From positions 1-64,000 of the forward strand of contig NZ_AQYH01000005.1 of NCBI RefSeq assembly GCF_000380505.1: a DNA stretch of 64,000 nt, written 5' to 3'. Below are positions 12,410 to 31,850 of the stretch, one piece after another. The DNA comes from Kaistia granuli DSM 23481. Lineage in GTDB: Bacteria; Pseudomonadota; Alphaproteobacteria; Rhizobiales; Kaistiaceae. How positions within the stretch are numbered: position 1 is the stretch's first letter; each line of letters starts with the position of its first letter. Made by a program: the position numbers and the translations under genes. The notes beneath the pieces are model-generated. The model saw only the letters and a list, made by a program, of their open reading frames with translations. It made no database searches and was not told the origin of the DNA.

Positions 12410-12423
12410 GAGGATCGGTCCTG

Positions 12424-13620: not shown

Positions 13621-13641
13621 TACTTATCAAGTTGATGAGTA
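13621..13641. promoter_or_regulatory. candidate operator in the divergent promoter of island A
   Basis: TACTTATCAA and TTGATGAGTA flank a single G and are complementary at nine of ten positions. The site lies in the 248-bp gap between the divergent ATPase and binding-protein genes. A plausible -35 (TTGACT at 13576) and a weak -10 precede it on the plus strand, which would place the palindrome near the transcription start, as expected for repression by a GntR protein. No binding consensus for this regulator is known to me. Confidence 0.5.
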
Positions 13642-13727
13642 TGATGAGGCTCGCCGCAGGAGGCGACGGGCCGGCCGGACGCAGGATGCAAATCGTCCGT
13701 CCTGTGCGTATCAATTCGGGAGGAACC

Positions 13728-15119: not shown

Positions 15120-15147
15120 TCCGCCCGCTTCGCTTCGAAACCGACTG

Positions 15148-15171
15148 GCGGGGTGGCGAAAGCCGCCCCGC
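15148..15171 (+). other. hairpin between binding-protein and permease genes, island A
   Basis: GCGGGGTGGC pairs with GCCGCCCCGC (one G-U) around a GAAA tetraloop. There is no U-tract. It starts 29 bases after the binding-protein stop. Such hairpins are known to protect the 3' end of binding-protein mRNA and to lower permease expression. Islands B and C have equivalents. Confidence 0.7.
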
Positions 15172-15190
15172 ATCTGACTGGATCCCCAAG

Positions 15191-16084
15191 ATGCGCTCCT
15201 CCGCCGCCCGCAGCCGCAACCGCTTCATCCTGCTCATGCTCGCACCGGCCACGGTGCTCCTGGCCGGGCTGACGCTCATTCCCTTCGTCGTCAGCGTCGG
15301 CTTCTCGCTGACCAATTATTCGCTGACCGCGCCGAACGACATCGCCTTCATCGGCCTCGGCAACTATCTCGCTCTGTTCTCGAGCAGCGAATTCTGGAAC
15401 GCGGCCTGGATCACGGTGCTGTTCACCGTCGTCGCCGTCGGGCTGCAGCTCGTGCTCGGCGTCGGCATCGCCGCCCTCCTGCATCACGAGACGCGGGCGG
15501 TCTCGGCGCTCCGGCTGATCTATCTGCTGCCGATGGCGATCACGCCGGTGGCGGCGGTCTTCACCTTCCGCATGATGTTCAATCCGACGCTCGGCGTGTT
15601 CAACTACATCCTGAAGACGATGGGCCTGCCGGCGCAGGACTGGCTCGGCTCGCCGACCATGGCGCTGGTGTCGCTGATTCTCGTCGACAGCTGGCAGTGG
15701 ACGCCCTTCATCCTGCTGATCGCCGCCGGCGGCCTCGCCGCCCTCGACGAGGAGCCGCTGGAAGCGGCCCGCATGGACGGCGCCGGGCCGATGGCGATCT
15801 TCTTCCAGCACACGCTGCCGATGCTGTTCCCCTATCTGGCGGTCGCGATCGTCTTCCGCTCGATCGATGCCTTCAAGACGTTCGACATCATCTTCGTCCT
15901 GACCAATGGCGGGCCGGGCGTTGCGACGCGCACGCTCAACCTGCTCGCCTACAAGCAGGGCATCGAGTTCCTTTCCATGGGCTATGCCGCGGCGATCGCC
16001 ATCGTCATGCTGATCGTCACCATCGTCGCCAGCCAATTGTTCCTGCGGCGGGTCGACCTGTTCAAACCCAAGGCGGCGCTGTGA
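15191..16084 (+). CDS. ABC sugar permease, MalF/UgpA type, island A
   Basis: This 297-residue inner-membrane protein has six predicted membrane segments, starting with RFILLMLAPATVLLAGLTLIP. It carries the EAA loop EAARMDGAGPMAIFFQHTLPM, the contact point for the ATPase. The frame is open upstream through the binding-protein gene, but the ATG at 15191 gives the standard length and N-terminus for the family. Its stop overlaps the start of the next permease by one base (TGATG), showing translational coupling. Confidence 0.92.
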   Translation: MRSSAARSRNRFILLMLAPATVLLAGLTLIPFVVSVGFSLTNYSLTAPNDIAFIGLGNYLALFSSSEFWNAAWITVLFTVVAVGLQLVLGVGIAALLHHETRAVSALRLIYLLPMAITPVAAVFTFRMMFNPTLGVFNYILKTMGLPAQDWLGSPTMALVSLILVDSWQWTPFILLIAAGGLAALDEEPLEAARMDGAGPMAIFFQHTLPMLFPYLAVAIVFRSIDAFKTFDIIFVLTNGGPGVATRTLNLLAYKQGIEFLSMGYAAAIAIVMLIVTIVASQLFLRRVDLFKPKAAL

Positions 16085-16968
16085 TGGCCGAGATGACGAT
16101 GACAAGCTCTCCCGACCGCGTGAACCTGCGCCCGCTCTCGCCCGCCACGCGGCTTGCGCGCGCCCTCGCGCCCTGGGCCCGCCGGCTGATCCTCTGGGCC
16201 TTCGCCATCTGGTGCCTGTTCCCGATCTACTGGCTCGCCACCATGAGCCTGAAGCGGCAGGTCGACGCCATGGCGCGCACGCCGCGCTTCTGGTTCCAGC
16301 CGATCTGGGACAATTACCTCGCCGTCATAAAGGCCGGCGACATCTGGAACTATTTCGGCTCGTCGCTGATCGTCGCGCTGGCGACCACGGCAGTCGCCCT
16401 CGCCCTCGGCATCCCGACCGCCTATGTGCTGGCGCGCTACCGTTTCCGCGGCAATTCCGATTTCGGCTTCTGGATTCTCTCGACCCGGATGACGCCGCCG
16501 GTCGCCATGCTGATCCCGTTCTTCGTGCTCTATGTCCGCACCGGGCTGATGGACACCTATCCCGGCCTCGTCATCGCCCATGTCGCGATCAACCTGTCGA
16601 TCGTGGTCTGGCTGATGAAGGGCTTCTTCGAGGATCTGCCGAGCGAGCTGGAGGAAGCCGCTTTCATGGACGGCGCCACCTATTTCCAGGCGTTCCGCCA
16701 GATCTGCCTGCCGGTGGCGCTACCCGGCATCGCCGCCGTCGCCATCCTCTCCTTCCTGTTCTCCTGGAACGAGTTCCTGTTCTCGCTGGTGCTGACCAAC
16801 GAGATCCGCACCGTGCCGGTCGGCCTCTATTCCTTCGTCGGCTATCAGCAGGTGCGCTGGGGCGAACTGTCGGCCTCGGCCGTGCTGATGCTGGTGCCGG
16901 TGCTCGCCTTCGTCTTCATTTTCCAGAAGCAGCTCGTTCGCGGCCTCACCATGGGAGCCACCAAATGA
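16084..16968 (+). CDS. ABC sugar permease, MalG/UgpE type, island A
   Basis: This 294-residue partner permease has a first membrane segment LILWAFAIWCLFPIYWLATM, five more segments, and the EAA loop EEAAFMDGATYFQAFRQICLP about 90 residues from the end. It forms the heterodimeric channel with the preceding MalF-type protein. Its last codons overlap the start of the DapA-family gene by four bases (ATGA), so the enzyme and the transporter are made together. Confidence 0.92.
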   Translation: MAEMTMTSSPDRVNLRPLSPATRLARALAPWARRLILWAFAIWCLFPIYWLATMSLKRQVDAMARTPRFWFQPIWDNYLAVIKAGDIWNYFGSSLIVALATTAVALALGIPTAYVLARYRFRGNSDFGFWILSTRMTPPVAMLIPFFVLYVRTGLMDTYPGLVIAHVAINLSIVVWLMKGFFEDLPSELEEAAFMDGATYFQAFRQICLPVALPGIAAVAILSFLFSWNEFLFSLVLTNEIRTVPVGLYSFVGYQQVRWGELSASAVLMLVPVLAFVFIFQKQLVRGLTMGATK

Positions 16969-17861
16969 CCGTTCGCGGCATTCACGCCATCCTCTACGCC
17001 TTCTTCGACGAGGACGAGCGGCTCGACCGCGCCGCCATGCGCCGGCAGGTCGAGCTCTGCCTCGACGCCGGCGTCGCCGGAATCGCCGCGCTCGGCCTCG
17101 CGACCGAAGTCGCAAAACTCTCCTTCGACGAGCGCCGAACGCTGATGCAGTGGGTGTCAGAGGATGTCGGCGGCCGCGCGCCGCTCGGCTTCACCATTCT
17201 CGGCCAGTCGGTCGAGGAACAGGTGGCGCTGGTGCGGGCGGCGGAGGCGGCGAAGGCCGACTGGATCATCCTGCAGCCGCCGGCCGTCGGCAGCTACGGC
17301 GCCGACGAATACATCGCCTTCTTCAGCCGCATCATGGCGCAGACGGACCTGCCGGTGGCCATCCAGAACGCGCCGCAATATCTCGGCCGCGGCCTCGACG
17401 CCGGCGACATCGCCCGGCTGATGGAGCGCCATCCCAACATGACGCTGATCAAGGCCGAGGATTCGGCCGTCGGCATCGAGCGGCTGATCGCCCGCACCGA
17501 GGGTCGGATCGACGTCTTCAACGGCCGCGGCGGGCTGGAGCTGATCGACAATCTGCGCGCCGGCTGCGCCGGCTTCCTGCTGGCGCCCGACCTGGTCGAC
17601 CGCGCCGTCGAGGTCATGCGGCTGCACGATGCCGGCGACCCCGCCGCCGACGCCCGCTACGCCGAGATCGTGCCGGCGATCGTCTTCGTCATGCAGTCGC
17701 TCGAAACGCTGATCTGCTACGGCAAGCGCCTGTTCGCAGCGCGCGCCGGATTGACCGTGCACGACCGCGGCCCCGCCCTGCGGCCGACCGAATTCGGCCT
17801 GTCGCTGGTGGCCCGGCACGCCGAGGCGCTCGGCCCGTTCGCCGGAACGATCTCGCGCTAG
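16965..17861 (+). CDS. DapA/NAL-superfamily lyase or dehydratase
   Basis: This 298-residue TIM-barrel protein belongs to the dihydrodipicolinate synthase/N-acetylneuraminate lyase superfamily. The Schiff-base lysine is K163 in LIKAEDS. The usual Tyr of the YNxP motif is replaced (IQNAP at 133-137), so the classical Tyr-mediated proton relay is altered. It is not the biosynthetic DapA: it is translationally coupled to a sugar importer and lies in an island with an aldonate dehydratase. Two roles fit, and sequence alone cannot separate them: aldol cleavage of a 2-keto-3-deoxy sugar acid, or its second dehydration as in the L-arabinose route via 2-ketoglutarate semialdehyde. I see no semialdehyde dehydrogenase in the window. 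Confidence 0.85.
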   Translation: MTVRGIHAILYAFFDEDERLDRAAMRRQVELCLDAGVAGIAALGLATEVAKLSFDERRTLMQWVSEDVGGRAPLGFTILGQSVEEQVALVRAAEAAKADWIILQPPAVGSYGADEYIAFFSRIMAQTDLPVAIQNAPQYLGRGLDAGDIARLMERHPNMTLIKAEDSAVGIERLIARTEGRIDVFNGRGGLELIDNLRAGCAGFLLAPDLVDRAVEVMRLHDAGDPAADARYAEIVPAIVFVMQSLETLICYGKRLFAARAGLTVHDRGPALRPTEFGLSLVARHAEALGPFAGTISR

Positions 17862-17868
17862 CACGACA

Positions 17869-17893
17869 TTCGGGGCGGCCAGGCCGCCCCGAA
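17869..17893. terminator. bidirectional hairpin between the DapA-like gene and wspR
   Basis: TTCGGGGCGGCC and GGCCGCCCCGAA flank one A, a perfect 12-bp inverted repeat centred in the 36-bp gap between two convergent genes. No U-tract is present on either side, so termination strength is uncertain, but placement between converging operons supports the call. Confidence 0.7.
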
Positions 17894-17897
17894 CCCC

Positions 17898-18959
17898 TCA
17901 GGGGGAAGAACTCGCCGCCGGCCTGGCCGGGCCCTCATGCAGCACGACCCGGTCGCGGCCCTCGGCCTTGGCACGGAACAGCGCCTGATCGGCCGCCTTG
18001 ACGAGATCGTCCGGCGAGCCGCCTTCTTCCGGCAGCATGGTCGCCACACCGATGCTGACGCTGATCCGGCCCTCGCCATGTGGAATGGCGAGATCGCGCA
18101 CGCCCTCGGTCAATCGCTCCGCCACATGCTGCGCCCCGGCGAGCGTCACATCGGTCAGGACGATGACGAACTCCTCGCCGCCATAGCGTGCTGCCAGATC
18201 GGTTGAGCGGTTGGCGCTCGACTGCAGCACGCCCGACACCCGCTTCAGCACGTCGTCGCCGGCAAGGTGGCCATAGGCGTCATTGTAGCGCTTGAAGTGG
18301 TCGACATCGATCATCAGCACCGAGACCTCCGTCTGCGTGCGCAGGCCGCGCTTCCATTCGGCGCCGAGATACTCATCGAAATAGCGCCGGTTGCCGAGGC
18401 CGGTGAGGCCGTCGATCCGGGTCAGCCGCTCCAGCTCGAGATTGACCCGCATCAGCTGGCGCTGGCTCTCCCGCAGTGCCCGATAGGCCTCGTCGCGCTG
18501 GACGTGATCGAGATAGGCCCGCGTGTGATAGCGGATGCGGGCCATCAGCTCGACCCGGTCCGGCAGCTTGACCAGATAATCGTTGGCGCCGGCCTGGAAC
18601 GCCTCGCTCTTGATCGACGGATCGTCCTTGGCCGACAGCACGATCACCGGGACCGAATGGGTCGTGGCTGTCTTGCGGTAGTGGCGCACGAGTTCCATGC
18701 CGTCGATGCCCGGCATCACCAGATCCTGCAGGATCACCGTCGGCTTGACGCGCTCGGCGACGGCCAGCGCTTCCATCGGGTCGGTGCAATAGTGAAAGTC
18801 CATGTCCGGCTGGGTGGCCAGCATCCGTCGCACCGCCTCGCAGATCATCACCTGGTCATCGACCAGCAGGACCATCGACAGGTATTTGTCGGCCGGCACG
18901 GGTGTCGGCAGCTCCGACGAACCGGGCTGCTGCGGGTTGAAATCCTGTTCACCCTTCAT
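17898..18959 (-). CDS. wspR: WspR-type response regulator diguanylate cyclase
   Basis: This 353-residue output protein makes cyclic di-GMP when phosphorylated. The receiver domain (about 28-150) has the phospho-acceptor D79 in ILQDLVMPG. A helical linker (QRDEAYRALRESQRQL) is nearly identical to that of Pseudomonas WspR. The GGDEF domain has an intact GGEEF active site at 260-264 and the inhibitory I-site RxxD (RSTD, 251-254), so feedback inhibition by c-di-GMP is expected. It is the last gene of the seven-gene wsp operon, 12 bases after wspF. Length and architecture match Pseudomonas WspR (347 residues). Confidence 0.95.
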   Translation of the reverse strand: MKGEQDFNPQQPGSSELPTPVPADKYLSMVLLVDDQVMICEAVRRMLATQPDMDFHYCTDPMEALAVAERVKPTVILQDLVMPGIDGMELVRHYRKTATTHSVPVIVLSAKDDPSIKSEAFQAGANDYLVKLPDRVELMARIRYHTRAYLDHVQRDEAYRALRESQRQLMRVNLELERLTRIDGLTGLGNRRYFDEYLGAEWKRGLRTQTEVSVLMIDVDHFKRYNDAYGHLAGDDVLKRVSGVLQSSANRSTDLAARYGGEEFVIVLTDVTLAGAQHVAERLTEGVRDLAIPHGEGRISVSIGVATMLPEEGGSPDDLVKAADQALFRAKAEGRDRVVLHEGPARPAASSSP

Positions 18960-18971
18960 GGGATGACCTTT

Positions 18972-19994
18972 TCAAGCATTGGCACGGGCGCAGGCCTCGA
19001 CGAGGCGCGACGCTATGGAATCGAGCGGAAGGATCTCCGCGGCGGCACCCAGTTCGGCGGCCGCCTTCGGCATGCCATAGACCGCGCTGGTCGCGCGGTC
19101 CTGGGCGATAGTGAGATGATGCCGCTCACGCAGCGTCTTCAGGCCGGCGGCGCCGTCGCGGCCCATGCCGGTCAGGAGCACGCCGACCAGATCGTCCTGC
19201 CACCAGCGCGCGGCGCTTTCGAAGAAGACATCGATGGACGGACGATAGATGTGCTGGCGCGGCTGCTGCGAATAGCCGAGCTCCTGGCTCGACTTGAAGA
19301 CCAGATGGTCGCTGGTCGAGGCGACCAGGATGGTGCCGGGCTTCGGCCGGTCGCCTTCGCGGGCGGCCCGGATCGGCAGCGCGATATGCTGGCCGAGCCA
19401 ATCGACCAGGCCGGCGACGAATTGCTCGTCGAGATGCTGCACCAGGACGATCGCCGCCGGGAAATCGACCGGCAGCCCGCCGAGCACCGCCGCCAGGGCG
19501 GCCGGACCGCCGGCCGAGGCGCCGATGGCGACGAGGCTGGAGGCGCGCGCGCCGGCGACCGGCTGCGCCGTCGTGGCGGTCCGCTTGCCGGGCACCTCGT
19601 GCACCAGCTTGCCGATCGTGGTGATCTTGGTCAGGAGCGCCGTGGCGGTGCCTGTGCCGTCGCCCCGCACGCCTGCCTGCGGCATGTCGACGGCGTCGAG
19701 CGCGCCATGGCCCATCGCCTCGTAGACGCCCGGGACGTTGTCCTCGATGCTGGCGGTAACCAGCAGGATCGGACAGGGCGTCGCCAGCATGATGCGGCGG
19801 GTCGCCTCGACCCCGTCCATGACCGGCATGTTCAGATCCATCAGCAGCAGATCGGGCAGATCGCGCTGGCAGAGCGCCACCGCCTCAGCGCCGTCCCTGG
19901 CGATCCAGGCGAGCTGATGCTCGGCCGTCGAGGCCAGGATTCGCCGCAGCAGCTCCACGGCGATCGGCATGTCGTTGACGATGCCGATTCTCAT
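18972..19994 (-). CDS. wspF: WspF-type CheB methylesterase
   Basis: This 340-residue protein has a receiver domain (phospho-Asp about residue 53, LLMDLNMPVMDG) followed by a CheB methylesterase/deamidase domain. The catalytic Ser (IGASAGGPAAL), His (VQHLDEQF) and Asp (LTGMGRDGAAG) are all present. In the Wsp system, WspF removes methyl groups from the WspA receptor and resets signalling; loss of wspF in Pseudomonas locks WspR on. It lies 22 bases after wspE and just ahead of wspR. Confidence 0.95.
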   Translation of the reverse strand: MRIGIVNDMPIAVELLRRILASTAEHQLAWIARDGAEAVALCQRDLPDLLLMDLNMPVMDGVEATRRIMLATPCPILLVTASIEDNVPGVYEAMGHGALDAVDMPQAGVRGDGTGTATALLTKITTIGKLVHEVPGKRTATTAQPVAGARASSLVAIGASAGGPAALAAVLGGLPVDFPAAIVLVQHLDEQFVAGLVDWLGQHIALPIRAAREGDRPKPGTILVASTSDHLVFKSSQELGYSQQPRQHIYRPSIDVFFESAARWWQDDLVGVLLTGMGRDGAAGLKTLRERHHLTIAQDRATSAVYGMPKAAAELGAAAEILPLDSIASRLVEACARANA

Positions 19995-20016
19995 CCGATG
20001 CTTCCCTGGCGCAGGT

Positions 20017-22311
20017 TCATTCCGTTGCCTCCCCGATCAGATCCACGACGGCATGAAGCAGCGTTTCGTCATGAAAGCTGCCCTTGGTCAGATAATAATC
20101 GGCACCCGCATCGAGGCCGCGCGCCCGGTCTTCCTCGCGATCCTTGTAGGACACGATCATCACCGGCAAGCTTCTCAGGCGAACATCCTTCTTGATCAGG
20201 GTGACGAGTTCGATGCCGTCCATGCGGGGCATGTCGATATCGGTCACCACCAGGTCAAACGGATCGGAGCGGACAGCGTTCCAGCCATCCATGCCGTCGA
20301 CCGCCACTTCGACCTCATAGCCGTGATAGTCGAGCAGTTTGCGCTCGAGTTCGCGCACCGTCAGCGAATCGTCGACCACCAGGACCCGTTTGCGCCGTCG
20401 CGCGGCGGCCGCGCCCGACCGGCGCCGCTCCAGCGTCCGCAATCCGCCGGCCGCGGCCAGCTTCTCGGCCGAACGTACCATGTCGGCGACATCGAGGATC
20501 AGCACCGGCGACCCATCATCCATCAGGGCCGCCGCGCTGATATCCTTGACCTTGGCGAGACGCTGATCGAGCGTCCGCACGACAAGCTCGCGCTCGCCCA
20601 GGAAACGGTCGACGACCAGCCCATACGCCTCGCCGCGATCGCCGACGACGACGACCGAAAGCTCGCCTTCGTCGAGCCGCGGCTCACCGCGTCCCAGCAC
20701 TTCGTGCGTCGTCAGCAGGCCAAGCTGCCGGTTATCGAAGTGGAAATGCGGTCGACCTTCCAGCATCTCGATCTGCTCGCGCGCCAGCGACAGCGTGCGG
20801 ATGATGCCGGTCAGCGGAAACGCGTAGGGCTCCTCGTCGACCTCGACCAGGAGCGTGCGCATCACCGACAGCGTCAGCGGCAGCTGCAGGCGGAACTGCG
20901 TTCCGGCGCCGGGTTGCGAGGCAACGCTGACCAGGCCGCGCACCTGTTTGGCCATCGCCTGCACGGCGTCGAGGCCGACGCCGCGTCCGGAAACATGGCT
21001 GACGGACGCCTTCATCGAGAAGCCGGGCAGGAACAGGAACTCCAGCAGCTCCGCCTCGCTCAGGCTGGCCGCCGTCGCCTCCGTCGTCAGCTGGCGTGCG
21101 AGGATCGCGGCGCGCAACGCCTCCAGCTCGATGCCCCTGCCGTCATCGGCGACGACGATCTGCAGCAGACCGGCCTTGTGCCAGGCCTCCAGACGCACCA
21201 CGGCTTCGGCAGGCTTGCCGGCGGCGAGCCGCTCTTCCGGAGTCTCGACGCCATGGTCGACGGCGTTGCGCAAAAGATGGCCGAGCGGCGCCTCGAGCTG
21301 CTCCAGGATATCGCGATCGATGCTGGTCGAGCCGCCGATGATCTCGAGCCGAACCTGCTTGCCGAGGCTGCGGCCGAGGTCGCGTATGCTGCGCGAAAAG
21401 TGCCGGACGCCATCCTCGAACGGCCGCATCCGGCTGGCGAGCGTCTCGTCATAGAGACGGTTGGCGAGATCGGTGGCGCGCCGGTCGATCGCTTCCAGCT
21501 CGTCGAGGCGGGCGGCGAGAAAGAGATGACCCTGCAGCAATTGTCGCTGCGCCTCTTCAAAGGCGAGCGCCGCCTTCTCCTCGACCGTGACCGGCAGGGC
21601 CGCGCGCAGATGCTCGAAGGCGCGGACGGTGTTGTTCTGCAGGCGCTTCAACCGCAGCAATTCGTCGTGGAACGGACGAAGCCGGCGGGCTTCCATCAAG
21701 GATTCGCCCGCTAGCCCCAGCAGCCGGTTCAGGCTCTCGGCCGTGACCCGGACCATGCTGTCACCGGAAGCGCCCGATGCGGATGGCGGGGGATCAACGG
21801 CTTCGACACGCGGCTCCGGCGCGCGGGTGGGTTCCGTCCCCTGCGCACTCGCGGCCGGCGCGACGAGGGGTACCGGTGGATCCGAGACCGGGTTCGAAGC
21901 GGCGTCCAGCGTTGCCAGGAAGGCGGCGATCACACCGGCGAAACGGCCGTCATCGGCTGGATACTCGCCGGTATCGCCTGGCTCGTCGCTGCCGGCGGCG
22001 ATGGCGGCCAAGAGGTCGACACCCCCAAGCAGCGCGTCGATATGGTCGCGGTTGAGGGCCAGCCGGCCTCTTTGGGCGGCGACCAGGCATTCCTCCATCG
22101 CATGCGCCACCTCGACGGCGGCGGCGAGGTCGATGATGCGGGCCGCGCCCTTCAGCGAATGGGCGGCGCGCATGCACGCCTCGAGATGGTCGGCCGCGAC
22201 CGGATTGCGCTCCAGCGCCAGGAGACCTGCGGTCAGCGCCTCGGACTGCGTCGCGAGCTCGGCCCGGAACAGGTCCAGCATGGAGAACTGGCTGAAATCC
22301 TCGCTGCTCAT
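20017..22311 (-). CDS. wspE: WspE-type hybrid CheA histidine kinase with receiver
   Basis: This 764-residue kinase contains, in order, an HPt domain with H51 (AAHSLKGAARI), a linker, a dimerisation helix pair (SLNRLLGLAGESLMEARRL), a HATPase domain (N-box HLLRNAVDHGVETPEER, G-boxes VADDGRGI and GRGVGLDAV), a CheW-like docking domain, and a C-terminal receiver (VLVVDDSLTVRE; TDIDMPRMDG). The attached receiver is the mark of WspE rather than flagellar CheA. It would phosphorylate WspR and WspF. Its start overlaps the wspD stop by four bases in the form ATGA. Confidence 0.95.
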   Translation of the reverse strand: MSSEDFSQFSMLDLFRAELATQSEALTAGLLALERNPVAADHLEACMRAAHSLKGAARIIDLAAAVEVAHAMEECLVAAQRGRLALNRDHIDALLGGVDLLAAIAAGSDEPGDTGEYPADDGRFAGVIAAFLATLDAASNPVSDPPVPLVAPAASAQGTEPTRAPEPRVEAVDPPPSASGASGDSMVRVTAESLNRLLGLAGESLMEARRLRPFHDELLRLKRLQNNTVRAFEHLRAALPVTVEEKAALAFEEAQRQLLQGHLFLAARLDELEAIDRRATDLANRLYDETLASRMRPFEDGVRHFSRSIRDLGRSLGKQVRLEIIGGSTSIDRDILEQLEAPLGHLLRNAVDHGVETPEERLAAGKPAEAVVRLEAWHKAGLLQIVVADDGRGIELEALRAAILARQLTTEATAASLSEAELLEFLFLPGFSMKASVSHVSGRGVGLDAVQAMAKQVRGLVSVASQPGAGTQFRLQLPLTLSVMRTLLVEVDEEPYAFPLTGIIRTLSLAREQIEMLEGRPHFHFDNRQLGLLTTHEVLGRGEPRLDEGELSVVVVGDRGEAYGLVVDRFLGERELVVRTLDQRLAKVKDISAAALMDDGSPVLILDVADMVRSAEKLAAAGGLRTLERRRSGAAAARRRKRVLVVDDSLTVRELERKLLDYHGYEVEVAVDGMDGWNAVRSDPFDLVVTDIDMPRMDGIELVTLIKKDVRLRSLPVMIVSYKDREEDRARGLDAGADYYLTKGSFHDETLLHAVVDLIGEATE

Positions 22312-23015
22312 GCGATGCTCCGATCGATCGCATCGAGAAGTCTCGTCTCGTCCAGAATGCCGACCGACCTCCCCTGCCAGGCCAGCATGGTCTTGGTGAA
22401 GGCCGACGCCGCCTGGCCGACCGTGCCCGGAACCGCCGTCAGCGCGTTGGGGCGAAAACGATGGATGCCGTGCACCTCATGCACGCTGAACGCGATCCGG
22501 CCATTGGCACGGCCGATCACCACCAGCCGCTCGAAATGCAGGCTGCGGTCGCGGCGCTCGACCTCGGCGTCCTTGTCGATGCCGAGCAGGGTGGCGAAGG
22601 AAATGCAGACGAGCAGTTCGCCGCGCACATTGACGATGCCGCGCACGATGCCGTTGCGCCGGTGCGGCAGCGAATGCACCCGGCGCGGCTCCGCCACCTC
22701 CTCGAACACGGAGGTCGACAAGGCCAGCCATTCCTCGCCGATACGGAAGATGACGACGGCGGCGAGCGCTTCGTCGCCATCAGTCTCGCCCGCCTTTTCG
22801 CCGGCGAAATGCGCCGCCCATTCGGCGCGATAATCCGCCGATAACGGCCGGTCAAGCAGCCCGCGCGCGGCGTCCTCGAAGGTCGGACAGTTGCGGCAAT
22901 GCAGATGCGTTTCGAGCTCCGGACAAGAACGATCGCCTTGGACGCCGATCCGGCGCCAGCAATCGTCGATCTCCCATGCCGCGGCGGCCGCGAATGTCCC
23001 GGAAGCATCCGACAT
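22308..23015 (-). CDS. wspD: WspD-type CheW coupling protein with Cys-rich N-terminus
   Basis: This 235-residue coupling protein has a C-terminal CheW domain (about 75-230, VVIFRIGEEWLALSTSVFEEV onward) preceded by a segment typical of WspD: CWRRIGVQGDRSCPEL followed by HCRNCP. The spacing C-x11-C-x8-C-x2-C could bind a metal, though this is only a pattern. The ATG at 23015 overlaps the wspC stop by one base; the codon before it is TTG. Having two CheW proteins, WspB and WspD, is standard for the Wsp system. Confidence 0.92.
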   Translation of the reverse strand: MSDASGTFAAAAAWEIDDCWRRIGVQGDRSCPELETHLHCRNCPTFEDAARGLLDRPLSADYRAEWAAHFAGEKAGETDGDEALAAVVIFRIGEEWLALSTSVFEEVAEPRRVHSLPHRRNGIVRGIVNVRGELLVCISFATLLGIDKDAEVERRDRSLHFERLVVIGRANGRIAFSVHEVHGIHRFRPNALTAVPGTVGQAASAFTKTMLAWQGRSVGILDETRLLDAIDRSIA

Positions 23016-24268
23016 CAAGTGCCGCTCCTATTCGTCATCCGGCCGAGCCGACCGGTCAGAACCCTGGCCCCGGCCGCGTCGCCTTGTCGTTGCAGCAACA
23101 AGGCGAGATGCGCCATCGCCTCGCGGTGATCGGGCGCGAGATAGATCGCCTTGCGATAATTCTGGACCGCCTCCTCGGCGTTGCCGGCGGCGTCCAGGAC
23201 GAGGCCCAGGCGATAAAACGCCTCGGCAGACGAGCCAAATTCGCGCAGATGCGAGCGCGCCGCCGCCTCCGCCTCTGCCAGCCGGCCGGCATTGGCGGCG
23301 CGTTCGATGGCGGCGAGGCTCGCGGCGACGCGGTCCGGCGATTGTACCGCCGGGGCGACAGGCGCCGGACGTGATTTTGCAGGCGCGGGCGACCGAGCGG
23401 CCGGCCGGTCGGCCGCCTTGGTACCGCCCGGGGGAAGCGCGCGGACCGGGCGCACCGCGCCCGGCGGCGTTGCGGGCTGCGCGCCCTCGGGCCTCAGCGT
23501 GAAGGCGAACGCCATCGGCAACCGGGCGGAGACGAAACCCTGCGCCATCGGCAACGCCGATTCGGCCGGGCCGACGAGCAGCAGCCCTTCCGGGGCCAGC
23601 ACGCCCTTCAGCCGGTCGAGCGCGCGGTCCTGCGTCGGCCGATCGAAATAGATGAGCAGATTGCGACAGAAGACGATGTCGAAGCGACCGGCCTCGGACC
23701 GAAGGTCGAGATCGAAGAGGTTGGCGCAGACGAAACGCACCCGCTCCCGCACGGCGTTTCGCGGCCGATAGGCGGCCTCGACCGGCTCGAAATAGCGGTC
23801 GCGGAAGCTGAGATCGCGGCCGCGGAACGAGTTGCGGCCATAGATCGCCCGCTCCGCATAGGCGATATTGCGCGCGCTGACATCGCGGGCCTCGACGACG
23901 AACGCCTCCGCCGCGAAACCGGCGTCGAACATCGCCATTGCCATCGAATAGGGCTCTTCGCCCGTCGAGCAGGGGAAGCTCAGGAGCCGGAGGGGGCGAT
24001 GGTGGCGCCGTTGCGCGTGCAGGTGTTGCGCCATCGCCGCGAAGGCGCCCTCATCGCGAAAGAACCAGGTCTCGGGAACCACGGTGGCGTCGATCAGCTC
24101 CTGCCGCTCGGCGCGCGATCCGCTGAGAAAATCCCAATAGGCGTGCAGGTCGGTGGTGCCGAGAGCCGTCATCCGCTCCTTGAGCGCATGACGAATGACC
24201 GAAGCGCCGACGGCGTCGCTGCTGAGGCCGATCTCGTCCTTCAGGAACTGTTCGATCACGCCCTGCAT
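23015..24268 (-). CDS. wspC: WspC-type CheR methyltransferase with TPR tail
   Basis: This 417-residue protein has a CheR domain (about 1-270), with SAM-binding LLSFPCSTGEEPYS and FDIVFCRNLLIYFD, then a Pro/Ala-rich linker, then about 100 residues of tetratricopeptide repeats (AEAFYRLGLVLDAAGNAEEAVQNYRKA). CheR fused to TPR is the WspC architecture and not that of flagellar CheR. It would methylate the WspA receptor. It shares one base with the wspB stop. Confidence 0.93.
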   Translation of the reverse strand: MQGVIEQFLKDEIGLSSDAVGASVIRHALKERMTALGTTDLHAYWDFLSGSRAERQELIDATVVPETWFFRDEGAFAAMAQHLHAQRRHHRPLRLLSFPCSTGEEPYSMAMAMFDAGFAAEAFVVEARDVSARNIAYAERAIYGRNSFRGRDLSFRDRYFEPVEAAYRPRNAVRERVRFVCANLFDLDLRSEAGRFDIVFCRNLLIYFDRPTQDRALDRLKGVLAPEGLLLVGPAESALPMAQGFVSARLPMAFAFTLRPEGAQPATPPGAVRPVRALPPGGTKAADRPAARSPAPAKSRPAPVAPAVQSPDRVAASLAAIERAANAGRLAEAEAAARSHLREFGSSAEAFYRLGLVLDAAGNAEEAVQNYRKAIYLAPDHREAMAHLALLLQRQGDAAGARVLTGRLGRMTNRSGT

Positions 24269-24732
24269 CAGGGGCTCGTCGCAAGCTGGCGAAACAGGAT
24301 GTCGCGGAGGGCCGGCGGCAACAGCGCCTCGGCCCGGACCAGCTGGATCAGCCCACGCGCATCGGCGGCGACCGGCCCGAGATAGGGGGGCATGCCGGCC
24401 TCGACGCCGGACGGCACGAAATCGGCGGGATCGCGCGACAGGGTCTCGATGACCCGCTCGGCGACGAGGCCGAGCCGGCGCGTTTCGCCCTCCCCGACGG
24501 GATAGCGGATCAGGATGATGCGCGTGCTCAGCACCGCGGCCGAAGGACGGCCGAGCGCCAGCAGGCTGAGATCGAGCAGCGGCACGGGGCCGCCATGATA
24601 GTTGATAGCGCCGACGACGCCGTGCGGCGCACCAGCCAGGACGGTGGGCGTGACGAAGGGCAGGACTTCCTCGACCTGCTCGACATCGAGAACGTAGCGG
24701 TCCCTGCCCAGACGAAACATCAGGAACAGCAT
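24268..24732 (-). CDS. wspB: WspB-type CheW coupling protein
   Basis: This 154-residue protein is a single CheW domain beginning MLFLMFRLGRDRYVLDVEQVEEVLP, close to the start of Pseudomonas WspB. The loop GAINYHGGPVPLLDLSLL is the CheW beta-barrel signature. It should link the WspA receptor to the WspE kinase alongside WspD. It lies 31 bases downstream of wspA and overlaps wspC by one base. Confidence 0.92.
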   Translation of the reverse strand: MLFLMFRLGRDRYVLDVEQVEEVLPFVTPTVLAGAPHGVVGAINYHGGPVPLLDLSLLALGRPSAAVLSTRIILIRYPVGEGETRRLGLVAERVIETLSRDPADFVPSGVEAGMPPYLGPVAADARGLIQLVRAEALLPPALRDILFRQLATSP

Positions 24733-24763
24733 GGTTCGACCCTCGTCTCCTCAGTGGACCGCA

Positions 24764-26401
24764 TCAGCCGCGCAGCTTGAACCGGGTGATGCTGCTGCGC
24801 AGCCCGCTCGATACCTGGTTCAGCTCCTCGATGGCGAGCGACGATTGCTGCAGCGATTCGACCGTCTGCTGCGCCGCCTCGCTCAATTGCGACAGCGCGT
24901 CGCTGATCTGGCCGGCGCCGGTCGCCTGCGCCTGCATGCCCTCATTGGCGATCTCGAAGCGCGGCACCAGGCCCTGCACCTGCTCGATGATCTCGGACAG
25001 CTGGCCACCGACCTGCTGCACCTCGGTCATGCCGCGGCGCACTTCCTCGGAGAACTTGTCCATGCCCATGACGCCGGCGGCGACGGCGGACTGGATGTCC
25101 TTGACCATCTGCTCGATGTCATAGGTCGAGACGGCGGTCTGGTCGGCGAGGCGACGGATCTCGGTGGCGACGACAGCGAAGCCGCGACCATACTGGCCGG
25201 CCTTCTCCGCCTCGATGGCGGCGTTGAGCGACAGGAGATTGGTCTGGTCGGCGACCTTGGTGATGGTGGTCACCACCTGGTTGATGTTGCCGGCCTTCTC
25301 GCTGAGGATCGCCAGCTTGGCGTTGATGGCGCCGGCAGCCTCCATCACATGCCGCATGGTCGCCTCCATCCGCGACAGGCCGGCCTGGCCGCCGCCCGCC
25401 AGTTCGGCGGTCTGTTCGGCAACGGTCGACACCTCGTTCATCGTGCGGACGAGTTCGTTCGACGTCGCCGAGATCTCCTTGGCAGTGGCGCCGATTTCCG
25501 TCGTCGTGGTGGCGATCTCGTTCGCCGTCGCCTGCTGCTGCTTCGAGGTCGCGGCGACCTCGGTGATCGAGGTGTTGACCTGGATGCCGGATTTCTGCAC
25601 CTGACCGATCAGCGTCGTCAAATCGTCGGCCATGCCGTTGAAGCCGTCGGCCAGCGTCGAGAACTCGTCGCGGCGCGCCAGCGCCAGGCGCTGGCTGAAA
25701 TCGCCGCGCCGCATCACCGCGACGGCGGCGACGAGCTGGCCGAGCGGCCCCATGATGGCGCGGAATAGCCAGTAAGCGAGCAGAACGGACAAGACGAGCG
25801 CGACAACGAAGCTGCCGATCAGCACCAGCTTGGCCGACTGCACATTGGCGAGGATGGTCTGGGTCGAGCGGTCGCTTTCGAGCTTGTTGTAGTCGACCAT
25901 CTTGCGCAGGCCGGCCTGGATCTGCTCCAGGATCGGCTCGAGTTCGTTCTTGATGGAGGCGCGCTGCTGAGCCACCGCTTCGGCCGTCGCGCCATTGCGG
26001 ATCATCGCGACGACCGCATCCTCCCTCGGGAAGAAGTCGTCGGCGAGCTGGCGCACCACATCGAGATTGACCTTGTCCTGCTCGGAATCGAAGGACTTCT
26101 CATAGGTGACCATCAAGCCGCGCAGATAGTCCCGATTGGCCTCGATCGCCGCCGTCGCGCTCTGGCGCGCCGCGTCGGTTTCCGACAGCGCCAGATCCTG
26201 CACCAGTGTCTGCGTCTCGATCCAGCCCGCCATCATCTCCAGGCTGTAGAACAGGCCCGGCACCGTCTTGGTCTCGACGGAAATCGCCTCGTTCTCGGTC
26301 CGGATCAGCGAGAGAAAGGTGAGCGCCGCCATGATCGACATCACCACCAGCACCGCGGCGAAACTGCCGAGAATACGTTGACGAATGGTCAGATTGTTCA
26401 T
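24764..26401 (-). CDS. wspA: WspA-type methyl-accepting receptor
   Basis: This 545-residue receptor has membrane segments at about 10-32 and 191-213 around a periplasmic helical domain of about 155 residues, then a HAMP domain ([15 protein letters not shown]...), then a cytoplasmic signalling coiled coil whose tip reads [33 protein letters not shown]. The N-terminus [15 protein letters not shown] matches the start of Pseudomonas WspA, which is why I chose this ATG over the longer open frame; an in-frame ATG six codons upstream is possible. WspA responds to surface contact or envelope stress in Pseudomonas. It is the first gene of the operon. The 296 bp between it and the next gene should hold the promoter, but I found no clear one. 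Confidence 0.93.
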
Positions 26402-26697
26402 CGAGCGTGGTTCCGTCATGCAAGCGTGGCTCGGCTCCGGGAGCCCTGGCCGCATTCCCGCGAACGCGCCGACCCATCGGATGATCGCATGACTATAGCG
26501 GCCAATCCTTTCATCTCCATTGCAGGCCGACGCAAAACGGACGTGGCCAACAAGAAGAAGATGGATGGAAGACCAGCAATGACGGCCCGGCCGGAAGCAT
26601 CCGCCCGCCGTCTCTCTCCGTCTCGTCGGCGCGACATCGCCGTCACCGCCAGGCCAGACCCTACAGTCGGCGGAGCCTCGCGCCTCCCGCCGAAGGC

Positions 26698-27366
26698 CTA
26701 GAGTCCCATCGCGCGGTGCATGGCGCGGGCGAGATGGGCGTCCATCGCCGCGACAGCGGCTTCCGGATCCTGGTTTTCCAGCCCCTCGATGACGGCGAGA
26801 TGCTCGTGCATCGTCTGCGCGACCGCCAACGCCGACAGCATGTACATGTTGTCGAGCCGGATGACGCCGATCTGCTCCATCATGTGGGCATGCGCCGTGG
26901 CGATCAGCGGATTGCGCAGGCTGTCGATCATGTGACGGTGAAACGCGCCGTCGACGGCCGAGGACTGCTCGATCAGCGCCGATTCGAGCGTGCCGGAACG
27001 GGCGAGCTCGATGATCGCTTCGTGACGTTCGCGCCAGGAGGCGAGATCCTCCTGCCCGGCGCGCTCGGCATAGCGCCGCACGGCCTCCGCCTCCAGCACG
27101 CGGCGCATCTGGAAGCAATCCTTCAGATGGCTCATGTCCGGCTTGACGATGCGGATGCCGGAACGCGGCAACACGGCGAGGAAGCCCTCCCGCTCCAGCA
27201 ATTGCATGGCCTCGCGCAGCGCCCCGGTCTGCACCTGCAGCAGATCGGCGAGCTCCCCCTGCGACACGGTCGCGCCGATCGGAATCTGGCGCGAGAACAA
27301 CGCCTCCTTGAAGCGCTGGTAGGCCACCTGACTGAGCTTCGTGGGGGCGTCTGCCGCCTGGACCAT
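26698..27366 (-). CDS. GntR/FadR-type regulator of island B
   Basis: This 222-residue protein has a winged helix ([26 protein letters not shown]) and an FCD ligand domain ([45 protein letters not shown]). It is divergent from the island B transport operon, separated by 158 bp that contain the perfect palindrome TTCATATATGAA. By position it should control that operon and itself in response to a sugar acid. It differs in sequence from the other two GntR proteins of the window. Confidence 0.88.
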
Positions 27367-27405
27367 GGTTTTCCCCTCTCCCTGAACGCGCCTTATATCA
27401 CGATC

Positions 27406-27417
27406 TTCATATATGAA
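27406..27417. promoter_or_regulatory. candidate operator in the divergent promoter of island B
   Basis: TTCATATATGAA is a perfect 12-bp palindrome 40 bases before the GntR gene and about 110 bases before the binding-protein gene. A second imperfect repeat (TATC..GATA) lies some 20 bases further. The length and AT-rich centre fit known GntR/FadR operators. Confidence 0.5.
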
Positions 27418-27524
27418 ACAGCGGTCCTATTGCTATCAGATGGCCGATATGAATAATCAGATCAGGATTTTGGTTGCGGGAAGAGGCAACCAGACTCGAT
27501 CAAATTGACCCTTGGGAGGAACTC

Positions 27525-28775
27525 ATGGTCGCCAATCTCACTCGCCGTGGCCTCATGGCGGGCAGCGCCGTGCTGGCCGCCTCGGCCGCCTTCGCCCCGA
27601 TGCGCGCCCTCGCCGCCACCAACATCAATTATTGGCACCACTTCACCAGCCAGGCCGAGTTCGCCGGCCTGCAGGCGGTGATGGAATCCTTCGCCAAGTC
27701 CCATCCGGCGATCCAGGTCACCCAGGAAAACATCCCGAACCCCGAATTCATGGCGAAGTTCACCGCGGCCGTGGTGTCCGGCAGCCGTCCCGACGCCACC
27801 ATGGTGACGGCCGAGCGGCTCGCCGACATGCTTGCCATGGAAGGCCTCGTCGACATCACGGCGCGCGTCGACGCCTGGGATCAGAAGGCGAACTTCCCGG
27901 ATGACCGCTGGAAGGGCATCTCGCGTGAAGGCAAGATCTATGGCGTGCCCGCTTTCGCCTTCGTCGATTGGGGCTATTACCGCTCCGACTGGTTCGAGGA
28001 AGCCGGCATCGCGGGCCCGCCGGCCACCTATGCCGAGTTCGTCGACATCGCCAAGAAGTTGACCGATCCGGCCAAGGGCCGCTACGGCTTCGGCATGCGC
28101 GGCGGCGCCGGCGGCCAGAAATACGTGCTTGACGTGATGGAGGCGTTCGGCGCGCCGGTCGTCGACGCCGAGGGCAATATCGGTCTCGACCGCGACAAGG
28201 CGATCGAGGCAGTCAAGTTCTATGCCGGCCTCTTCACCACCGACAAGGTCGTGCCGCCGAGCGCGCCCGGCGACGGCTACCGCCAGATCATGGAAGCCTT
28301 CCGCACCGGCCAGACCGGCATGATCTGGCATCACACCGGCTCGTTCCAGGAGATCTCGGCAGCCCTCAAGCCCGGCGTCGAGTTCAAGACGTTCGCGATT
28401 CCCGCCGGTCCCGTCGCCCGCGTAGCCCGTCTCGCCTATCTCTACAATGCGATGATGAAGGAAGAGAACGCCGACGCCGCGTGGGACTGGATCAGCTATT
28501 GGGGCCAGACAGAGCCGGCGCTCGCCCTGCTCGAGAAGACGGGCTACTTCCCGGCCAACGCCGCCGTGGTCAACGACGAGCGCATCACCTCGAACCCGCT
28601 CTATGCGCCGGCCGTCGAGACGCTCTCCTTCGGCATCCTGCCGGCCAATTTCGTCGGCATCGCCGGCTGGTCGGAGCACACCGTGCTCGCCGCCTTCCAG
28701 AAGGTTCTGATCGGCCAGCTGTCGGCCGAGGACGCCGTCGACGAGATGATCGCCGGCCTCGAAGAGACCAAGTAG
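27525..28775 (+). CDS. extracellular sugar-binding protein, island B
   Basis: This 416-residue family 1 solute-binding protein has a twin-arginine-like leader (LTRRGLMAGSAVLAASAAF) ending at ALA. The mature part begins TNINYWHHFTSQAEF, as in CUT1 sugar-binding proteins. The ATG at 27525 follows GGGAGGAACTC; an earlier ATG in frame has no site. It heads a five-gene plus-strand operon with an enolase-superfamily enzyme, two permeases and an ATPase. Confidence 0.92.
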   Translation: MVANLTRRGLMAGSAVLAASAAFAPMRALAATNINYWHHFTSQAEFAGLQAVMESFAKSHPAIQVTQENIPNPEFMAKFTAAVVSGSRPDATMVTAERLADMLAMEGLVDITARVDAWDQKANFPDDRWKGISREGKIYGVPAFAFVDWGYYRSDWFEEAGIAGPPATYAEFVDIAKKLTDPAKGRYGFGMRGGAGGQKYVLDVMEAFGAPVVDAEGNIGLDRDKAIEAVKFYAGLFTTDKVVPPSAPGDGYRQIMEAFRTGQTGMIWHHTGSFQEISAALKPGVEFKTFAIPAGPVARVARLAYLYNAMMKEENADAAWDWISYWGQTEPALALLEKTGYFPANAAVVNDERITSNPLYAPAVETLSFGILPANFVGIAGWSEHTVLAAFQKVLIGQLSAEDAVDEMIAGLEETK

Positions 28776-28794
28776 CGCGCCGGGCCAGCATCGG

Positions 28795-28825
28795 CCGGGC
28801 GGTCGCGTTTCACGCCGCCGCCCGG
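28795..28825 (+). other. hairpin after the binding-protein gene, island B
   Basis: CCGGGCGG and CCGCCCGG enclose a 15-base loop, starting 19 bases after the binding-protein stop codon. There is no U-tract. It parallels the hairpins found at the same place in islands A and C. Confidence 0.55.
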
Positions 28826-28908
28826 ATCGCGCACGCCCGCCGCCCAGCCCACCTGACCTCCGCATCGCATGAAAGTCGTTGGCGTGCCGACCACGCCGGG
28901 AGCAACCC

Positions 28909-30015
28909 GTGAAGATCACCGACATCCGCGCCTACATCATCGAGGACGACCATCCGCAGCACGCCTTCCGCTGGCGCCAGGGCCTGGCCGGCTCCGGTGA
29001 CGGCACGGCGCCCGGCGAGCGACCGAAGACGGCCATCCTGCGCATGGATACGGACGAGGGCATCACCGGCTCGGTCAGGATCGCCGATGGCGAGGCGATC
29101 GCCAGCCTGACGCGCCGCCGCCTGAAGACGCTGATCGGCGAGAACCCGCTGATGACCGAGCGGCTGTGGACGCTGATCTGGGAGATCGACCGCGTCGAGG
29201 AGCTGCACATGCGCCATCTCGGCCTGATCGACCAGCTCGCCTGGGACATCAAGGCGAAGAAGGCGGGCCTGCCGGTCTACCAGATGATCGGCGGCAACAA
29301 CGACCGCGTGCAGGCCTATGCCTCGACCGTCACCTGGGACACGATGGACGAGTATGAGCGCTACATCAAGGAATGCATGGATGTCGGCTTCACCGCCTTC
29401 AAGCTGCATGCCTGGGGCGACGCCAAGCAGGACGCCAAGCTCAGCCACAATCTGCGCAAGTGGACCGGCGACGACGCCGTGCTGATGTTCGACGGCTCGG
29501 CCGGCTGGGACTTCGTCACCTCGCTCTGGTTCGGCCGCCAGCTCGAGGATGCCGGCTTCTACTGGTACGAGGAGCCGATGCGCGAGTTCGATCTCAAGAG
29601 CTACACCAAGCTCACCGAGCAGCTCGACATCCCCGTGCTTGCCGCCGAGACCTCGGATGGCTGCCACTGGAACGCCGCCACCTGGATCGACATGGGCGCG
29701 CTCGACATGATGCGCACCTCGACCTTCTACAAGGGCGGCATCACCGGCGCGATGAAGGTGGCGCATCTGGCCGAATCGCACGGCATGAAGGCGCAGGTGC
29801 ACGGCATGAGTGTCGCCAACGCCCATATCTGCGGCGCCATCCCCAACAACGACTTCTACGAGCAGTTGGTCATCTCGAGCGAGCAGATCCGCGGCCTCGC
29901 CAGCCTGGCCGAGGTTCCGATCGTCGACGGCTATCTGACCGTGCCGTCCGAGCCCGGCCTCGGCGCCGAGCCGGACTGGGCCTATCTCGAGCGCACCGCG
30001 CTCGCGATCGTCTAA
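28909..30015 (+). CDS. mandelate racemase/enolase-superfamily sugar-acid dehydratase
   Basis: This 368-residue protein has the N-terminal capping domain and C-terminal barrel of the enolase superfamily. Likely active-site residues are the K165-x-H167 pair (AFKLHAWG), metal ligands D195 (LMFDGSAGWD), E221 or E222 (WYEEPMRE) and E247 (LAAETSDG), and H298 (QVHGMSVANAH). The KxH pair in place of KxK argues against a muconate-type enzyme and fits acid-sugar dehydratases of the mandelate racemase subgroup. The exact substrate is not evident. The GTG start is chosen because GGGAG lies six bases before it. It sits between the binding-protein and permease genes, so it should act on the imported compound or its oxidised form. 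Confidence 0.85.
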   Translation: MKITDIRAYIIEDDHPQHAFRWRQGLAGSGDGTAPGERPKTAILRMDTDEGITGSVRIADGEAIASLTRRRLKTLIGENPLMTERLWTLIWEIDRVEELHMRHLGLIDQLAWDIKAKKAGLPVYQMIGGNNDRVQAYASTVTWDTMDEYERYIKECMDVGFTAFKLHAWGDAKQDAKLSHNLRKWTGDDAVLMFDGSAGWDFVTSLWFGRQLEDAGFYWYEEPMREFDLKSYTKLTEQLDIPVLAAETSDGCHWNAATWIDMGALDMMRTSTFYKGGITGAMKVAHLAESHGMKAQVHGMSVANAHICGAIPNNDFYEQLVISSEQIRGLASLAEVPIVDGYLTVPSEPGLGAEPDWAYLERTALAIV

Positions 30016-30028
30016 GGAAACAAGAGAG

Positions 30029-30985
30029 ATGGCCGAACGCATGTCAGCCCTATCTGAGCAGTCACCGTCGATCTGGCGGCGGCTCGATCCGGCGGCGGCG
30101 CTCGGCCGTCTCTCCGAAAGCCGCTACTGGATGTATCTGCTGCTGGTCCCCAGCGCGATCCTGATCCTGGCGGTGGTTCTCTATCCGACCGTTTACGGCT
30201 TCCAGCTATCCTTCCGCCAGATGCGGCTGAACCGGCCGGATCTCGGCACCGGCTTCGTCGGCTTCAAGCACTACATCTATATGTGGTCCGACAAGGTGTT
30301 CTGGCTGTCGCTGCGCAACACCGCTGTCTGGGTCACCTTCGCCGTGGTGATCGAGTTCGCGCTCGGCCTCGTCGCCGCGCTGGCGCTCAACCGCAATCTG
30401 CCCGGCACCAAGATCATGGGCGTGCTGATCCTGCTGCCCTTCTTCCTGCCCAACGTCGTCGCCGGCCACATGTGGGCGCTGCTGCTCGACCCGCGCCTCG
30501 GCGTCGTCAACGACATCCTCGTCCGGCTCGGCTTCCTCGAAACCTACAAGGCCTGGTTCGCCGATCCCTCGACCGCGCTCGGCGCCGCCATCCTCGTCGA
30601 GGCATGGCACGGCTTCCCGTTCTTCGCGCTGCTGCTGCTGGCTGGCCTCAAGGGCGTCCCGGACGACCTCTACAAGGCGGCCTCGGTCGACGGCGCCGGC
30701 CCGATCCGGCAGTTACGCCTGATCACGCTGCCGATGCTGCGCTCTGTCATCGCCGCCGCCGTCATTCTCCGCGTCATCGGCCTGGTCAACTCGCCGGACC
30801 TGCTCCTGATCCTGACCGGCGGCGGCCCTGGCCAGTCGACCCAGGTGCTGTCGCTCTACGCGTTCCAGAAGGCCTACAAGGACTTCAACTTCGGCTATGC
30901 CGGCGCGCTTTCCGTCGTGATGTTCGTGCTGCTCATGGTCTTCGCCTGGGCCTATGTGCGCGTCTCCAAAGTGAACCAGGACTGA
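30029..30985 (+). CDS. ABC sugar permease, MalF type, island B
   Basis: This 318-residue membrane protein has six predicted spans, the first being YWMYLLLVPSAILILAVVLYP, and the EAA loop KAASVDGAGPIRQLRLITLPM. The N-terminal 30 residues are cytoplasmic. It begins 13 bases after the enolase-superfamily gene, with AAGGAAAC and AGAGAG upstream of the ATG, and is followed at 9 bases by its partner. Confidence 0.92.
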   Translation: MAERMSALSEQSPSIWRRLDPAAALGRLSESRYWMYLLLVPSAILILAVVLYPTVYGFQLSFRQMRLNRPDLGTGFVGFKHYIYMWSDKVFWLSLRNTAVWVTFAVVIEFALGLVAALALNRNLPGTKIMGVLILLPFFLPNVVAGHMWALLLDPRLGVVNDILVRLGFLETYKAWFADPSTALGAAILVEAWHGFPFFALLLLAGLKGVPDDLYKAASVDGAGPIRQLRLITLPMLRSVIAAAVILRVIGLVNSPDLLLILTGGGPGQSTQVLSLYAFQKAYKDFNFGYAGALSVVMFVLLMVFAWAYVRVSKVNQD

Positions 30986-30994
30986 GGGAACGCC

Positions 30995-31840: not shown

Positions 31841-31850
31841 GGACACCATC

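Follow-up and report, generated by a model that had tools for sequence, protein, structure and literature searches.

We analyzed a window, i.e., a whole stretch of 64,000 nucleotides, from the alphaproteobacterium Kaistia granuli DSM 23481 (contig NZ_AQYH01000005.1, positions 1 to 64,000). The list of open reading frames (ORFs) and the domain scan revealed, between positions 17898 and 26401, seven contiguous and co-directional ORFs on the minus strand, arranged as wspA-B-C-D-E-F-R, the genes of a Wsp system (Table 1). In other bacteria, such a system converts contact with a surface into a signal for biofilm formation. An earlier reading of the letters alone (hereafter, the sequence-only reading) had described these seven genes, and the ORFs, their domain architectures and their order all agree with it. 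The spacings from the A/B to the F/R junction are +31, -1, -1, -4, +22 and +12 bases, which gives the overlaps of one to four bases it had reported at three of the six junctions. The ATG of wspA sits within a longer TTG-started frame of the ORF list. For wspD, the start is most likely the ATG at 23015, which shares one base with the stop of wspC, rather than the listed TTG at 23018.

The motifs said to be intact were located. WspR has GGEEF at residues 260-264, the I-site RxxD as RSTD at 251-254, and the receiver Asp79. His51 and Asp691 of WspE, Ser160, His187 and Asp280 of WspF, and the receptor tip of WspA are all present, where the residue that we take to be catalytic in each WspR, WspE and WspF motif is assigned from family knowledge. 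WspE is a CheA with a C-terminal receiver and no P2 domain recognised in the Pfam scan, and WspF scores 466 bits against NF009206 (cut-off 342). The operon has two CheW proteins, WspB and WspD. The latter bears an N-terminal extension with the Cys-rich start already seen in the sequence-only reading, a module of four cysteines (Cys4).

Table 1. Coordinates of the genes and other features of the wsp locus in the window.
Feature	Position	Strand	Description	Evidence
wspA	24764..26401	-	membrane chemoreceptor, 545 aa	Pfam 4HB_MCP_1 + HAMP + MCPsignal
wspB	24268..24732	-	CheW-type coupling protein, 154 aa	Pfam CheW 1.6e-18
wspC	23015..24268	-	CheR methyltransferase with C-terminal tetratricopeptide repeats (TPR), 417 aa	Pfam CheR 1.6e-38, TPR
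wspD	22308..23015	-	second CheW, N-terminal cysteine module, 235 aa from ATG	Pfam CheW 1.7e-20
WspD Cys4 module	22887..22961	-	C-x11-C-x8-C-x2-C, residues 20-44 counted from the TTG at 23018	module profile match at 22845-22973
wspE	20017..22311	-	CheA-receiver hybrid kinase, 764 aa	Pfam Hpt, HATPase_c, CheW, Response_reg
wspF	18972..19994	-	CheB methylesterase with receiver, 340 aa	Pfam Response_reg + CheB_methylest 1e-59
wspR	17898..18959	-	receiver-GGDEF diguanylate cyclase, 353 aa	Pfam Response_reg + GGDEF; PDB 3bre E 2.5e-121
Inverted repeat	17869..17893		perfect, 12 nt with 1-nt loop, between the ends of a dapA-like gene and wspR; possibly a terminator common to both	
Gap 5' of wspA	26402..26697	-	296 bp, presumed wspA promoter region	ORF ends
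Block absent from G010	17842..26699		absent from this relative at the matching site	flank alignment

Identity and distribution of the system

By its sequence, the system is a genuine R-type Wsp. The best PDB match of WspR is 3bre, over residues 16-350; this entry is the WspR of P. aeruginosa (PMC5907407). WspR also matches 3i5a over residues 23-339, and both matches are far above PleD (1e-52). The 2021 survey of Wsp systems counts as Wsp those loci that are syntenic with known wspA-F and at least 30% identical to them (PMC8552884). We applied this definition with two Pseudomonas loci in place of P. fluorescens Pf0-1 and B. cenocepacia HI2424, from which the survey had started, and found identities of 50-53% (WspA), 42-43% (WspB), 44-47% (WspC), 40-43% (WspD), 51-53% (WspE), 55-56% (WspF) and 56-57% (WspR). 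In a sample of 385 genomes of the class, only the window genome and three others (G100, G227 and G099) match the window WspE with at least 499 bits, and the next best match has 338.

To place WspE we built a tree of 56 sequences, of which 25 were named as Wsp and 31 were not. In it, the window belongs to a Wsp clade of 26 sequences with a Shimodaira-Hasegawa-like approximate likelihood ratio test (SH-aLRT) support of 100, and not with flagellar chemotaxis or other classes of alternative cellular function (ACF). The 26th member comes from G100: it was entered as one of the class sequences and turned out to belong to a whole Wsp locus with a GGDEF output. Outside this clade lie 27 of the 31 other CheA or CheW sequences, among them two CheW-domain proteins of G001 and G009 that score 44 bits, fill the alignment poorly and are not proper CheAs. 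The remaining three (those of G227 and G099, and a partial one, all of family f75) are the sister group, and the joint clade has a support of 96. This tree, like the 67-sequence tree of WspA-F below, results from a quick search without bootstrap in which long branches were flagged; outgroups were used for WspE, and the joined WspA-F trees contain Wsp sequences only.

We then scanned species genomes with the WspR receiver and, from 594 stretches with 576 relatives, kept the best 80, ranked by likeness to the window, such that the counts below are no census. All of wspA-F, each at a coverage of at least 60%, were found in 63 of these 80 loci, which argues that the gene set is together beyond chance. 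The other 17 lack the full set and many of them are cut by contig ends; in three, the WspR-like gene stands alone. One of the three, in Granulicella rosea, has no other wsp genes detected within 20 kb, and in another (L081) they were not found in the stretch examined around the WspR-like gene. Adding the window and three Kaistia stretches to the 63 loci gives 67 complete A-F sets. In 62 of them WspR matches over at least 85% of its length; in the other five, all from Verrucomicrobia, only the receiver matches.

Alphaproteobacterial hosts of A-F with WspR include Kaistia, Bosea, Mesorhizobium, Ancylobacter, Methylopila, two roseomonads and Labrys, and two further A-F loci are named to the order level alone. 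The 2021 survey held Wsp exclusive to beta- and gammaproteobacteria. The A-F cores with WspR in alphaproteobacteria imply that this claim is wrong, and it is already at odds with the Wsp of Zetaproteobacteria reported in 2017 (PMC5513912). R-type Wsp looks rare in the class sampled, since it was confirmed in only 2 of the 385 genomes (the window genome and G100), counting loci traced as far as their output and hence not a partial one in G324.

Other outputs accompany the A-F core. Four of the five verrucomicrobial sets were scanned (L065, L067, L090 and L118), and in all four the output is a receiver-histidine kinase hybrid. In these four, and in L081, the WspR-like receiver is fused to a histidine kinase and further receivers, with an Hpt domain too in L067, L081 and, below the Pfam cut-off, L090. 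They are reminiscent of WspH of Burkholderia, a likeness by description. Two alphaproteobacterial loci of family f75, in G227 (L208:10745-11956) and G099 (L209:5396-6604), associate a Wsp-like A-F core with a receiver fused to a SpoIIE phosphatase, which adds a further kind of output to WspR and WspH. Finally, WspE matches at E<=1e-100 were found in 20 plasmid records, including 6 of Mesorhizobium and 3 of Novosphingobium; the same organisms also match the WspR receiver, each gene being searched by itself. One of the 20 records is predicted to be conjugative and four mobilizable.

Evolutionary history and chromosomal site

We built a tree from the 67 complete A-F sets. The starting 85 sequences comprised 84 loci and the window stretch, of which 17 were excluded as incomplete and one (L127) as a copy of another (L054). 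The window falls in a clade of 22 Wsp from Hyphomicrobiales with a support of 100, and two roseomonads are its sister group (100). This clade is apart from Pseudomonas, Achromobacter, Bordetella, Cupriavidus and Pandoraea, and Labrys lies outside it. A smaller tree of 29 sequences recovered a matching clade of 21 with the window (support 100/100). The eight Kaistia sequences do not form one clade: enforcing their monophyly on the 29-sequence tree costs 199 log-likelihood units (approximately unbiased test, p-AU 3.7e-6), a test made after the split had been seen in the larger tree.

The distribution within the genus is patchy. WspR reaches at least 512 bits in 8 of the 14 Kaistia genomes (counting Mesorhizobium sp. 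BR1-1-16 in this genus set), all eight having A-F, and at most 168 bits in the other 6, in 14 other genomes of the family and in 33 other genomes of the order. Upstream of wspA lies a gene for a GntR/FCD regulator (26698-27366, Pfam scan). This gene also occurs in G011, G009, K. terrae and K. defluvii, which together with the window make up a Kaistia subclade of five. Seven flank proteins of the window were searched for around wsp in K. dalseonensis, BR1-1-16 and G001, and not one had a match. In G010, window positions 12000-17841 (92%) and 26700-33560 (89%) are matched with 22 bases between them, and CheW has no match in this genome; hence wsp was lost or gained there as a block. In G006, a poor draft, the GntR gene is kept and CheW is unmatched, and the contig ends 1.4 kb beyond.

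The simplest reading of these sequence comparisons would be exchange among Hyphomicrobiales plus loss. The sequence-only reading had raised a horizontal origin: the trees support exchange between lineages, yet place the window closest to Wsp of other Hyphomicrobiales and not of Pseudomonas or Burkholderia. The Wsp of G100, also alphaproteobacterial, has a WspE that groups with Pseudomonas (SH-aLRT 99-100) and is an apparent separate transfer. A mobile-element origin is unsupported: we found no direct repeats within either edge region, each searched by itself and not compared with the other, and only a terminator-like hairpin. The composition of the operon is unremarkable, with a GC content of 0.66-0.70 per 1.5 kb (flanks 0.63-0.68).

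As had also been noted from the letters, the operon lies between sugar-uptake islands: ABC-transporter-like ORFs were seen by eye on both sides, together with the GntR/FCD regulator. The sugar transporter-like genes beside wspR (about 12447-17841) are present in G010; in G009, K. terrae and K. defluvii the flanks match and these genes are missing between them, which makes them another variable island at this place.

The cysteine module of WspD

According to the 2021 survey, WspD has conserved motifs without known or predicted function (PMC8552884). To study the Cys4 module, we used 75 WspD sequences collected via WspR and not via the module, including one duplicate genome pair (L054/L127, both module-less) and near-copies such as L059/L060. 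The full set C20, W21, C32, H40, C41 and C44 is present in 58 of them, and the other 17 have at most one of the six residues. The module is all-or-none: it is kept or lost as a unit. It is found in all 17 Pseudomonas sequences and all 7 verrucomicrobial ones, and in only two of the nine from Kaistia, the window and K. dalseonensis; the window WspD keeps it while its sister G011 is without it. On a tree of WspA, B, C, E and F (67 sequences, 51 with the module and 16 without), we counted at least five changes. In our reading, the module-less lineages are G011; K. terrae, K. defluvii and G009; a clade of Methylopila, Ancylobacter, G001 and BR1-1-16; Pandoraea; and Pararoseomonas.

Taking as conserved the columns that are the same in at least 90% of the module-bearing sequences, only 1 of 709 outside WspD deviates in three or more of the five module-less lineages, hence the rest of the system is still constrained after the loss. 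In WspD itself 12 of 43 columns deviate, all within residues 20-44, which is partly so by construction. A WspB K30T change was considered as a compensation and dropped, because T is also found in the module-bearing window. A profile of the module gave 25 matches in 398 genomes of the phylum including the window, one per genome and all in WspD. Of these 25, all retrieved by means of the module, 5 have R or D in place of the His and keep the four Cys. Both relatives with a SpoIIE output carry the module, suggesting that it is probably old.

Judging from its residues, the module may be a metal site, either for sensing or for merely holding the fold. An AlphaFold2 model of WspD (36 sequences) is confident over the CheW domain and poor over the N-terminus, with a confidence of about 60-64 over the module. 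A PDB search with this model is silent on the module: at E<=0.001 it gave 18 matches, each of them to a chain of CheW or CheA. Searched by its own sequence, the module matched nothing in the PDB up to E 10 and nothing significant in Pfam. Kinship with two families was rejected as not significant: RING fingers (1 of 18 members, E 0.037) and the 4-hydroxyphenylacetate decarboxylase small subunit (3 of 18 members, best E 0.045), which binds iron-sulfur clusters.

Proposed function and meaning

Wsp is the only chemosensory array found in this Kaistia genome. The three CheW domains of the genome are all inside the operon, and the one gene for a methyl-accepting chemotaxis protein (MCP) is wspA, matched as two pieces of one open frame. 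Six of the eight CheW-bearing Kaistia genomes have the three Wsp domains alone, and G001 and G009 have seven. The second set of four in the latter two (G001:C8, about 12.8-18.0 kb; G009:C3, about 667-672.6 kb) has three domains in a single frame of 540 or 586 amino acids. The window genome also has 20 GGDEF and 8 EAL matches, one of the latter partial, which point to an active turnover of cyclic diguanylate (c-di-GMP). FliG_C, the single family searched among those of flagella and pili, had no match in any of the 14 Kaistia genomes, with a positive Caulobacter control. Kaistia sp. 32K, which may or may not carry wsp, is described as non-motile, without flagella, producing exopolysaccharide and forming biofilms (PMC7563137).

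From the single array and the lack of FliG_C, we consider it highly probable that this R-type Wsp, in a Wsp lineage exchanged among Hyphomicrobiales, is a dedicated switch from envelope or surface contact to c-di-GMP, for adhesion and exopolysaccharide. Taken with strain 32K, the lack of FliG_C makes a flagellum-independent switch the best reading. From homology we infer a surface or membrane input and a c-di-GMP output. If phosphoflow, methylation, stimulus and output are as in the Pseudomonas work, WspA would sit in the inner membrane and be set by a methylation balance, with WspC turning it on and WspF off; methylation of WspA itself is unconfirmed in Pseudomonas (PMC8552884, section 8). 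WspA would control the kinase WspE through WspB and WspD. WspE would phosphorylate WspR at Asp79, upon which the GGEEF domain would make c-di-GMP, and also WspF, which would reset the receptor.

Several points weigh against this function. The periplasmic part of WspA is only about 20% identical to those of the two Pseudomonas WspAs compared, which leaves room for a different stimulus. A search of the window genome for PilZ domains gave no match. The lack of a flagellum is read from one family, FliG_C, in a draft of 20 contigs (completeness 100, contamination 1.72).

The array might alternatively no longer sense surfaces and answer a chemical ligand, e.g., one linked to the neighboring sugar-uptake genes. 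The fast divergence of the WspA sensor would fit: relative to the four nearest Kaistia, the periplasmic part is 55-66% identical and the cytosolic part, from residue 263 on, 95-100%; relative to 20 other WspAs, the tip is 86-100% identical and the periplasmic part 11-66%. The GntR gene shared by the whole subclade is also in line with it. Yet R-systems usually combine a poorly conserved sensory domain with a highly conserved signalling domain (PMC8552884, section 8), wsp is kept without the downstream sugar genes at the site in K. terrae, K. defluvii and G009, and the seven flank proteins tested had no match around wsp in K. dalseonensis, BR1-1-16 and G001, which makes this explanation unlikely. 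A search with the sensor gave no meaningful match (best SlmA, E 0.13). That the locus is an ordinary flagellar or other ACF chemotaxis cluster merely resembling Wsp, built as it is of domain families common to Che systems, is extremely improbable given the score gap of WspE, the synteny with named Wsp loci and the lack of FliG_C, and we regard it as already refuted by the WspE tree with the CheA sequences sampled.

A further, tentative possibility is that the Wsp core receives a second input from the cytosol. WspD would bind zinc or an iron-sulfur cluster with its Cys4 module and gate the coupling of WspA to WspE by redox or metal state. The array would in this way combine envelope contact with the chemistry of the cell, and the module-less lineages would have lost this input. 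The all-or-none pattern and its repeated changes, the constraint on the rest of the system, the persistence of the four Cys where the His is replaced, and the confinement of the module to WspD favor it, as does the report that WspA is located differently in wspD and wspB deletion mutants (PMC8552884, section 8). But the metal site is read from sequence, with a poorly modeled fold and no significant PDB or Pfam match, and the data fit equally well with a zinc site that is structural and senses nothing. Moreover, the repeated loss means that the module is dispensable for the array as such, and several losses are plain deletions, which makes the joint disappearance of the residues trivial. In a more speculative form, WspD would be the sensor itself: a redox- or metal-responsive Cys4 would license the coupling of receptor and kinase, and Wsp would be a two-input coincidence detector of envelope contact and cytosolic redox or metal state. 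If so, the Wsp systems that naturally lack the module, e.g., those of K. terrae and K. defluvii as compared with the module-bearing window, would work with one input.

The dedicated envelope or surface switch that we favor has close counterparts. The R-system of Pseudomonas (wspABCDEFR, PMC8552884) is alike in gene content and order, domain architectures, GGEEF, I-site and the cysteine module of WspD; it differs in that Kaistia belongs to another Wsp clade, has a distant WspA periplasmic part, and lives in a host without FliG_C, other CheW, another MCP gene or a PilZ match. The Zetaproteobacteria CP-5 and CP-8, compared by description, also have a complete wspABCDEFR outside the beta- and gammaproteobacteria, in a different class and with two wspR copies per genome, and particle attachment was proposed for it (PMC5513912). 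The WspH H-system of Burkholderia has the same A-F core as described (PMC8552884), with a receiver-histidine kinase as output where Kaistia has a receiver-GGDEF protein. The Wsp-like cluster 2 of Halomonas is alike in its CheR-TPR, CheA-receiver and diguanylate cyclase output; however, its gene order differs and its diguanylate cyclase has an Hpt and two receivers (PMC5907407).

The Kaistia Wsp itself is a known type of system; its interest lies in the host range, the solitary setting and the WspD module. Neither an alphaproteobacterial Wsp nor this module turned up in the literature, covered mostly at the level of titles and the start of abstracts. The host range contradicts the published exclusivity of Wsp to beta- and gammaproteobacteria. 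With Wsp as the one array found and FliG unmatched, Kaistia could allow its input to be examined free of cross-talk from chemotaxis. Finally, the 2021 survey left open what Wsp needs two CheW proteins for (PMC8552884), and the repeatedly lost module of WspD gives a direct way to address this.

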